Positions 11,887-13,359 of a stretch of 14,947 bases of DNA are shown piece after piece (position 1 is the first letter of the stretch; every line of letters begins with the position of its first letter). The notes beneath the pieces were generated by a model. The model saw nothing but the letters and a program-made list of their open reading frames with translations, was not told the origin of the DNA and ran no database searches. A program made the position numbers and the translations under genes. The DNA is from Thermoproteota archaeon (lineage in GTDB: Archaea; Thermoproteota; Methanomethylicia; Methanomethylicales; B66-G16): contig QMQV01000034.1 of NCBI GenBank assembly GCA_003649085.1, positions 1 to 14,947 on the forward strand, given 5' to 3'.

Positions 11887-13359
11887 ATGAGACAGGTGTC
11901 GGTTGTGTCGGATAGTGATGTTAAGAAACCTAGCAATAGAGAAGAGCTCATAAAGTTGTTGAAGGAAGCCATGTTAAAGGAATTGAGAGAGCGGGCAGCT
12001 TTAAAGAAAGCTCCTCTGAGACCTACAATCTCCGGCACAGCTAGGGCGTTAAATATACACAGAGATACTCTATATTCTTGGCTTAAGGAATTTAATGTGG
12101 ACTTTGCTGAAGTAGCAAAAACCGTGGAGATGCCTTCCGACATAAGCTTGTCGGAACCAAACGAACACGTGTATCTAATTGGAGAAGCTCTTGTCGGCGA
12201 GGGAAACGAAGTAGCCCATATAGATCTCATATTAGGGGATAAGAACGGCCCCGTAGGGGAAGCGTTTGCATCTGGGCTTGCACACATGTCAGCAGGTCAC
12301 ACGCCGCTATTAGCTGTCATAAGGCCTAACCTACCTCCAAAACCTCACACCCTCATTGTCCCTAAGGTAACCATTAAGAATATGGAGCAAGCGAACGCAA
12401 TTTTCGGACCAGCACAGGCAGCGGTCGCAAAGGCAGTAGCAGATGCTGTAGAAGAGGGCATCTTACCAAGAGATAAGGTCGACGACTGGGTAATAATCTG
12501 TAGCGTTTTCATACATCCAGATGCTAAAGACTACCGAAAGATCTATCATTACAACTACGGCGCAACTAAGTTAGCTTTGAAAAGGGCTATGGCGAAGTAT
12601 CCGTCATTAGAGAAAATCTTTTACGATAAGGATAGGGCTACGCATCCAATTATGGGCTATAGAGTACCAAGGCTGTGGAGACCACCGTACATACAAATAG
12701 CATTAGACATACCTAGCTTAGAGCAAACGAAGAGAATTATCATGCAAATACCTAAAAGCGACAGAATTATTCTCGAAGTGGGAACACCTTTAATCAAAAA
12801 GTATGGCACTAAGGTGATACGTGACTTAAGAGAAGTTGCTAAGGACATGTTTATGGTAGCTGATCTCAAGACTCTAGACGTGGGTAAAGTAGAGGTAGAC
12901 TTAGCATACGAAGACACAGCAGACGCCGTAGTCGCGGCTGGTCTAGCTCCAACAGAAACCTTGGATGGCTTCATTTACGAAGCTAAGAGGCTTGGCATAT
13001 ACGCTGTGGTAGACATGCTTAACGTAGATGACCCTATTAAAAAGCTTAAATCACTCAAGGAATTCCCAGATGTCATAATAATACATAGAGGTATAGACCA
13101 GGAGACTGGCAGAACAATAGGTCTTGAGCTTATAGAAAAGCTACGGGAGACATTCAAGGATAAGCGCTTCTTAGTAGCTGTAGCTGGCGGCATTGTCCCT
13201 GAAACAGCTAAGGAAGCCCTTGAAAAGAAAGCCGATATCATAATAGTAGGTAGATACGTGACGCAGTCAAAGGACATTGAGCGAGCAGTAAGAGAATTCC
13301 TAACATTGACGCCTGAGATGCGCGAAGACATCGATCTCTTCAGAGTTCACGTCGAGTAA
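11887..13359 (+). CDS. HTH-Fae-Hps fusion: formaldehyde-activating enzyme / 3-hexulose-6-phosphate synthase with N-terminal DNA-binding domain
   Basis: A 490-residue protein in three parts. Residues 1-94 are an extra segment: a charged helix (18-42), then a Fis-like helix-turn-helix, TARALNIHRDTLYSWLKEF (51-69), then a polar linker. Residues 95-255 are Fae, which condenses formaldehyde with tetrahydromethanopterin; the block LIGEALVGEGNEVAHIDL (97-114) carries H111, equivalent to the catalytic His of bacterial Fae. Residues 265-475 are Hps, a TIM-barrel enzyme of the OMP decarboxylase suprafamily, with the DxKxxD motif at D326/K328/D331, HRGID (400-404), VAGGI (432-436) and GR (455-456). In archaea Fae-Hps makes ribulose 5-phosphate in reverse and traps the formaldehyde. 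No isomerase partner (Phi) is nearby. The ATG is fixed by an upstream in-frame stop and a TATA box 27 bases away. A GTG at codon 95 could in principle start a plain Fae-Hps. Confidence 0.93.
   Translation: MRQVSVVSDSDVKKPSNREELIKLLKEAMLKELRERAALKKAPLRPTISGTARALNIHRDTLYSWLKEFNVDFAEVAKTVEMPSDISLSEPNEHVYLIGEALVGEGNEVAHIDLILGDKNGPVGEAFASGLAHMSAGHTPLLAVIRPNLPPKPHTLIVPKVTIKNMEQANAIFGPAQAAVAKAVADAVEEGILPRDKVDDWVIICSVFIHPDAKDYRKIYHYNYGATKLALKRAMAKYPSLEKIFYDKDRATHPIMGYRVPRLWRPPYIQIALDIPSLEQTKRIIMQIPKSDRIILEVGTPLIKKYGTKVIRDLREVAKDMFMVADLKTLDVGKVEVDLAYEDTADAVVAAGLAPTETLDGFIYEAKRLGIYAVVDMLNVDDPIKKLKSLKEFPDVIIIHRGIDQETGRTIGLELIEKLRETFKDKRFLVAVAGGIVPETAKEALEKKADIIIVGRYVTQSKDIERAVREFLTLTPEMREDIDLFRVHVE
12135..12156. 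promoter_or_regulatory. Perfect dyad of the operator heptamer inside the HTH-Fae linker codons
   Basis: The arms TTCCGACA (12135-12142) and TGTCGGAA (12149-12156) are exact reverse complements separated by six bases. They encode residues 83-90 of the fusion, the linker between the HTH and Fae, where amino-acid constraint should be low. It is the only close head-to-head pair in the array and could be the best site for a dimeric DNA-binding domain. A one-mismatch copy follows at 12192-12198. Confidence 0.65.

Follow-up and report, generated by a model that had tools for sequence, protein, structure and literature searches.

Can an archaeal enzyme of C1 and pentose metabolism act as the regulator of its own gene? 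The question is raised by a forward-strand gene in a 14,947-nucleotide stretch of DNA (contig QMQV01000034.1; "the window" hereafter), which encodes a fusion of formaldehyde-activating enzyme and 3-hexulose-6-phosphate synthase (Fae-Hps) behind an N-terminal extension. An earlier note on this DNA had read the extension as a "Fis-like" helix-turn-helix (HTH) and proposed that, through heptamers around the gene, the enzyme controls its own synthesis. It is likely, in our assessment, that this Fae-Hps is a trigger enzyme, with an HTH head that acts on TCCGACA operators of its own gene and autorepression that is tuned by ligand. The proposed control of its own synthesis is strongly supported by comparison among relatives, in which head and operator accompany each other one-to-one, a different head comes with a different operator, both are lost in a pair of paralogues, the sites show helical phasing, and a nearly whole chromosome has a single cluster of them.

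A Fae-Hps enzyme with an additional head

The gene and its parts are as follows.

11887..13359, + strand: HTH-Fae-Hps gene; 490 aa from ATG 11887, with GTG 11905 (484 aa) the probable true start and GTG 11896 a possible one
11938..12123, + strand: N-terminal head; predicted helices at residues 18-38, 48-54, 59-68, and 73-79; HTH, with HRDTL and W65 invariant in alignment A1
12178..12654, + strand: Fae domain (formaldehyde-activating enzyme); residues 98-256, profile match PF08714
12685..13299, + strand: Hps domain (3-hexulose-6-phosphate synthase); residues 267-471, OMPdecase-type profile, with DLKTLD at 326 and HRGID at 400

The frame at 11887-13359 (+) comprises 490 open codons without a break. 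The NCBI equivalog model for Fae-Hps (NF009833) covers just residues 96-489 (587.7 bits, against a cut-off of 274), and residues 1-95 are therefore extra to the enzyme, which confirms the approximately 94 additional N-terminal residues described in the earlier note. DLKTLD and HRGID are taken here to be the Hps motifs DxKxxD and HxGxD, and Hps residues D326, K328, D331, H400, and D404 are invariant in the 27 sequences compared. Judged by these matches, the enzyme part is a full-length member of the Fae-Hps family with intact motifs, and is predicted to be catalytically active.

The best Pfam matches of the head are to HTH and phage DNA-packaging families, none of which is named for the head of an enzyme. 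For the 94-residue piece these include HTH_28 (E 1.1e-4; 22.7 bits, gathering cut-off 25), HTH_23 (E 1.9e-4; 21.6 bits, cut-off 24.6), and HTH_29 (E 2.3e-4; 21.6 bits, cut-off 28.1). In alignment A1 (30 sequences), HTH_28, HTH_29, and GP3_package (phage DNA-packaging) each match 30/30 sequences at E<=0.1, and the homeodomain-like HTH_23 matches 29/30, vs. 16/30 for HTH_8 (Fis, PF02954; best E 0.0014), a family not listed for the window protein. Thus, the HTH claim is retained on profile matches that lie below the cut-offs and on predicted helices, and the "Fis-like" label has no specific support. Sixteen columns of A1 are invariant, including H58, R59, D60, T61, and L62, as well as W65.

An AlphaFold2 model of the head has block pLDDT (predicted local confidence) values of 72-89 over residues 11-80, with a long helix (residues 18-38) and three shorter ones; in this model, predicted helices 48-54 and 59-68 make up the HTH. 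Fold comparison with Foldseek returned mostly TetR-type and other HTH regulators, none significant, so that the separate HTH head anticipated by the earlier note is seen as helices of good local confidence and not as a significant fold match. PDB entry 2ao9 (a phage protein) aligns to positions 2-84 of the head profile (E 0.028). A full-length structure model was discarded as too poor (pLDDT 64).

When 30 codons of the HTH are compared in every pair among 68 loci, 42024 codon differences result, and 25405 of these are synonymous, vs. 21% for random single-base changes. By this measure the head is under protein-level selection. The earlier claim that head and enzyme form a single gene is strongly supported by the comparative evidence. 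The extra HTH head on Fae-Hps is, as far as these sequences indicate, conserved in Bathyarchaeia. That it is a DNA-binding head is suggested by the sub-cut-off profiles together with its association with the operators described below.

The window contains two GTG-TCG pairs, one at codon 4 (11896) and one at codon 7 (11905). Because window codon 7 falls in the A1 column in which the other 29 sequences have their assigned start, GTG 11905 is probably the start, in preference to ATG 11887 (the single start of the earlier note, and still a possible one) or GTG 11896. Starts in relatives were set by a scripted residue pattern; in 21/68 loci the frame begins immediately upstream of that start, and in 10/68, the window included, there is an in-frame ATG further upstream. 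Translation from an internal GTG (codon 95), named in the earlier note as a finding that would count against its reading, was rejected because the head is kept at the protein level. It appears only as the annotated start of a database copy (P0006), an annotation that ignores the protein-conserved frame. P0006 and P0232 (an enzyme with the third head described below) are both annotated from internal starts, by which the head is wholly or mostly hidden, and other such cases may exist.

Putative operator heptamers in the window

The putative operator sites and the adjoining promoter element are listed below.

11706..11712, + strand: operator heptamer TCCGACA, outermost upstream; exact match
11762..11768, - strand: operator heptamer TCCGACA; exact match
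11792..11798, + strand: operator heptamer TCCGACA; exact match
11837..11843, + strand: operator heptamer TCCGACA; exact match
11849..11855, + strand: TATA-proximal operator heptamer TCCGACA, at the place of the conserved -53 site of relatives
11858..11864, + strand: TATA-like box TTTATTA, just 3' of the TATA-proximal heptamer; from the sequence and alignment with relatives
11897..11903, - strand: variant heptamer ACCGACA (TGTCGGT on the + strand), over GTG 11896
11906..11912, - strand: operator heptamer over the probable start codon (GTGTCGGA); TGTCGG at +1 in 61/68 loci
12136..12142, + strand: intragenic heptamer TCCGACA in the head-Fae linker; exact match
12149..12155, - strand: intragenic heptamer TCCGACA in the head-Fae linker; exact match

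Exact TCCGACA occurs nine times in the window, eight of them within 11706-12155; the mean for the whole window after shuffling is 0.78, and the maximum in 200 shuffles is 3. No other 7-mer of the window is as clustered; the runners-up reach five copies per 450 bp. The operator-like heptamers of the earlier note are thus well founded. The sole exact copy outside the cluster (6481-6487) lies inside a 681-aa reading frame.

Head and operator-like sites in relatives

A scan of genome contigs yielded 52 loci, 48 of them titled Bathyarchaeota, Bathyarchaeia, or Bathycorpusculum; the 5' end was read for 49 loci, and 48 of these have TCCGACA in the interval from 400 bp before the match start to 300 bp past it. 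A heptamer lies 3 nt before the TATA box of relatives, mostly as TCCGACA-NNY-TTAWATA and approximately 50-55 bp before the assigned start, and 61 of 68 distinct loci have TGTCGG over their assigned start codon (from 80 loci, 75 could be placed and seven duplicates were dropped).

Among 256 sampled genomes of the class, 121 are matched by the head profile (123 matches, 107 of these in frames >=477 aa) and 167 by the Fae profile. The exact string TCCGACA-NNY-TTAWATA is present in 89 genomes, one copy each; all 89 exact matches (TCCGACANNYTTAWATA) precede, by 49-64 bp, a head match of the same orientation, and the string was found in none of the 135 genomes without the head. Thirty-two genomes bear the head without the exact string. 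Of the 28 read, 24 show NCCGACA at 2-5 nt from the TATA box on its upstream side; in the remaining four (L108, L119, L120, and L219) a one-mismatch copy stands there, as judged by eye. In G003 a one-mismatch copy precedes the head match by 51 bp, and G064, G157, and G158 were left unread. Loci L043 and L047, which have masked bases over the head, were not counted as headless. Across these genomes, head and operator sequences co-occur one-to-one.

On a nearly whole chromosome (G066:C1; 1.2 Mb of a 1.2034-Mb contig, with 21900 bases masked), there are 100 heptamers, and the single spot with >=3 in 300 bp is fae-hps; six permuted heptamers gave no cluster of >=3 per 300 bp on the same contig. No broader regulon was found by the TATA-linked string (256 genomes) or by clusters (1.2 Mb of G066), lone heptamers not being followed.

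These distributions bear on the alternative that a separate transcription factor binds TCCGACA and that the HTH head serves oligomerization or another partner. The HTH scores, all under curated cut-offs, would fit such a role; however, a separate factor would have to mark fused-head genes only (89/89), and would have a single target cluster in 1.2 Mb. It would also need replacing wherever the head is replaced, and would lose its sites where a paralogue lost the head, as described below for relatives. We therefore regard a separate factor as highly improbable. Among the 110 short proteins (44-165 aa) that the head profile search also returned, many contain a portion of Fae and some have names that mark them as partial; as they were not read singly, some room is left for free-standing copies of the head.

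DNA-level constraint and helical phasing

The density of CCGACA is 8.31/kb at -200..-60 and 7.06/kb at +8..300 of the gene, compared with 0.65/kb over the remainder of the gene and 0.32/kb elsewhere in the loci. The second codon (Ser2) is TCG in 63/68 loci, vs. 10.1% of 5778 serines in flanking open reading frames (ORFs), a background unfiltered for overlapping or antisense frames, in which TCG accounts for 6/45 second-codon serines. Among the five loci without TCG, L006 and L010 have a misplaced start, and L022, L110, and L119 truly differ. The Pro-Thr pair beside the HTH is written CCGACA in 70/96 cases, vs. 19/264 in flanking ORFs; elsewhere in the same genes the proportion is 26/57, in part at other heptamer sites.

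Distances from the TATA-proximal site to the upstream sites, computed with the window's own sites excluded, have a best period of 10.6 bp (76 distances, R 0.67). The period persists after thinning to <85% identity (10.7; 43 distances), <80% identity (10.7; 26 loci, 34 distances, p 1e-6 at 10.5), and <75% identity (10.6; 12 loci, 22 distances, p 2e-3, and 0.021 scan-wide, a value that presumes evenly spread distances). This periodicity places the upstream sites of relatives along a single face of the helix. In 25 of 26 representative promoters (L119, which lacks CCGACA there, was omitted), mean conservation is 1.94 bit in the heptamer vs. 0.16 bit in the promoter bases upstream of it, the former partly by construction because rows were picked for having CCGACA.

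A heptamer that is a promoter element of the lineage, or an artefact of coding or repeated sequence, might likewise have one copy tied to the TATA box and some copies in the codons of conserved Pro-Thr, as is the case here. Such an origin is barely credible, given that the TATA-linked string marks this one gene per genome, that the codons used at the coding copies depart widely from the usage of flanking ORFs, that promoter bases upstream of the heptamer are unconserved (with the stated selection of rows), and that both orientations are present, with helical phasing.

Other heads, headless copies, and phylogeny

In 16 loci of the class (L136-L151) and in L217, a second head of about 55 residues (RxPGxIT..Q...[LI]E..V..G...S.SEA.R) replaces the HTH. 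At E<=0.1 it matches ParD_antitoxin in 14/14 sequences (best 1.9e-4) and RHH_1 in 11/14 (best 7.8e-6), partly below the cut-offs (16.7 vs. 20.5 for the first member), and it matches the PDB structure of the ParD-1 antitoxin at E 1.3e-4; it therefore appears to be ribbon-helix-helix (RHH)-like. Fifteen RHH promoters were read. Two GTGACAC/GTGTCAC sites are present in 11 of them, at a distance of 51-52 bp in nine and of 62-63 bp in two; three others have a single site, and the last, on a contig that starts approximately 100 nt upstream, has none. L217 has two GTGACAC-type sites 62 bp apart. The order in RHH promoters is the inner site, then a further half-site, then the TATA box. The string GTGWCAC-N5-GGNCAC-N13-15-TTAWATA is present in 12/256 genomes, once each, and always at the headed gene; these are the genomes of 11 read promoters and G249 (gene L217). 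The exact string is absent from 5/17 identified RHH-headed genomes (G226, G227, G228, G229, and G238). From these promoter sequences, the RHH clade carries a different operator, GTGACAC, at five or six helical turns.

A third head, another HTH (SRDT[IV]ERR), is encoded by L134 and by database proteins P0233-P0236. L134 (genome G211; start offset 798, reverse strand) has TGCCGCA, TGCGGCA, and TGCGGAA near the gene start, with starts 41 and 43 bp apart; these TGCCGCA-type sites, from one locus, may be a candidate operator.

Heads and heptamers are also absent together. Ten headless Fae-Hps loci of the class lack TCCGACA close to the start (in L127 and L130 a single copy lies approximately 730 nt away), and 12 Fae or Fae-Hps loci outside the class sample have neither a head nor TCCGACA near the start. 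The Asgard-titled L044 (71% identical) has neither the head nor a heptamer just upstream. The extension, for which the earlier note had looked to close relatives, is indeed present in the closest ones, though absent from other Fae-Hps with up to approximately 75% core identity. Of two diverged Fae-Hps paralogues, L155 (G090) has lost the head, and L156 (G099) has a degenerate one in which HRDTL has become QLDTL; both are without upstream heptamers, and the main copies in G090 and G099 keep head and heptamers. These paralogues can be read as a natural knock-out of the proposed circuit.

A tree of 66 of 93 distinct core rows (midpoint root; HTH rows thinned, and L043 dropped for masked bases) groups the 15 RHH rows as a clade (98/93); the HTH rows, the window enzyme among them, form another (96/90), inside which L155 and L156 group together (100/100). 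The fork that joins the RHH and HTH clades has support of 92/91, and headless L044 and L223 lie between them on long branches. The sequence patterns of the heads are unrelated, and these data are therefore most simply explained by separate gains or replacements; the relatives seem to have gained a DNA-binding head more than once.

P0006, 99% identical to the window protein, is labelled Candidatus Methanomethylicota, and the tree sets the window enzyme among Bathyarchaeota; the conflict may reflect a mislabelled assembly or transfer. Second Fae copies in head-bearing genomes (L152 in G124, L153 in G006, and L154 in G004) are fused to the C-terminus of another domain, which by eye looks like a dihydrodipicolinate-synthase-type aldolase, in frames of approximately 500 aa; no heptamers are listed upstream of their Fae part.

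Proposed mechanism

Given a head and matching sites over its own gene, the enzyme probably controls its own production directly, and it probably does so as a repressor. Solved structures show Fae as a pentamer and Hps as a dimer, and several heads per particle are therefore likely. The HTH head would bind the TCCGACA heptamers over the promoter and 5' end of its own gene; several heads of the oligomeric enzyme would grip several phased heptamers by looping or wrapping; and the bound enzyme would block the TATA-binding protein (TBP) and transcription factor B (TFB) at the TATA box, which would result in autorepression. As ligand, a substrate or product of Fae or Hps (tetrahydromethanopterin [H4MPT] or methylene-H4MPT, ribulose 5-phosphate [Ru5P], hexulose 6-phosphate [Hu6P], or formaldehyde) would alter the grip, by which enzyme level would be matched to pentose demand and formaldehyde load. 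This predicted link to pentose demand or formaldehyde load is plausible. Fae-HPS of Methanospirillum hungatei is described as taking part in the production of Ru5P from fructose 6-phosphate, and Fae is thought to trap the released formaldehyde on tetrahydromethanopterin (PMC5241800); many Bathyarchaeia have been proposed to use a reverse ribulose monophosphate pathway (PMC8407382).

The placement of the sites bears on the sign of the regulation. The key heptamer of relatives adjoins the TATA box, where TBP and TFB must bind; the TATA-adjacent and start-codon sites are about five turns apart, and further sites extend into the gene, an arrangement that suits a repressor bridging or wrapping the promoter. 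Archaeal activators can act from just upstream of a TATA box, where the conserved site lies, and a head that binds the same operators and recruits TFB/TBP, with positive autoregulation relieved or enhanced by ligand, would share the operator data with repression. Activation is nonetheless unlikely: the second conserved site, over the start codon in 61/68 loci, is downstream of the expected transcription start, and sites run into the coding region, a combination better suited to repression. Two observations weigh against autorepression through an HTH head as a whole: every HTH profile score of the window's head falls under the Pfam gathering cut-off, and the window's own heptamers are not in clean helical register.

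We give about even credence to a wider proposal, in which Fae-Hps of Bathyarchaeia was made its own transcription factor three times independently, through a homeodomain-like HTH, an RHH, and a second HTH. At least two of these would have converged on sites five or six turns apart, the inner one at the TATA box, with a multi-headed oligomer that wraps or loops the promoter, release by active-site occupancy, and an output that reads out pentose and formaldehyde flux. Repeated gain of unrelated heads would mean that the level of Fae-Hps must follow its own activity closely, plausibly because the enzyme sits between pentose supply and toxic formaldehyde.

Neighboring genes

Four neighboring features were identified in the window.

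5747-6064, - strand: ArsR-like regulator (HTH_5, E 8.7e-12)
10470-11264, + strand: NucS endonuclease (285.7 bits)
11362-11658, + strand: Alba protein (E 5.1e-19), which ends 47 bases before the first heptamer of the cluster
13347-14771, - strand: two-subunit fumarase/tartrate-dehydratase-type enzyme, convergent with fae-hps; the frame of the second subunit, as listed, overlaps the 3' end of fae-hps by 13 nt

Comparison with known systems

The class of the host is widespread and largely uncultured, and little is known of its gene regulation. If the proposal is true, a whole sensor-actuator circuit is contained in one polypeptide; since the predicted operators are short and exact, the claim is testable with recombinant protein, with no need of a cultured host.

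As an enzyme, the window protein is conventional: its residues 96-489 are a full member of the Fae-Hps family (NF009833; e.g., Methanospirillum hungatei), the model of which has no DNA-binding head. Archaea possess other enzyme-derived regulators, including RbkR (riboflavin kinase and HTH), HTH-PRTase, and the ThiN regulators, in which an HTH is likewise fused to a metabolic enzyme domain; to our knowledge, none of these is a Fae-Hps. No description of a DNA-binding head on Fae-Hps was found in the literature searched, outside which lay most subscription journals and all preprints. Trigger enzymes are known as a kind, and such a head on Fae-Hps appears to be new.

Known trigger enzymes include PutA, BirA, NadR, and PepA (PMC8249747). 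PutA is described as binding only the putA/putP spacer, its own gene included, and as repressing in the absence of substrate (PMC8249747). By analogy of function, PutA is the nearest counterpart of the enzyme proposed here. The head of PutA is a ribbon-helix-helix. Unlike PutA, BirA, NadR, and PepA, the system in Bathyarchaeia would join a C1/pentose enzyme to an archaeal TATA promoter, would use scattered single heptamers in helical register that reach into the gene, and would have three unrelated heads on one enzyme.
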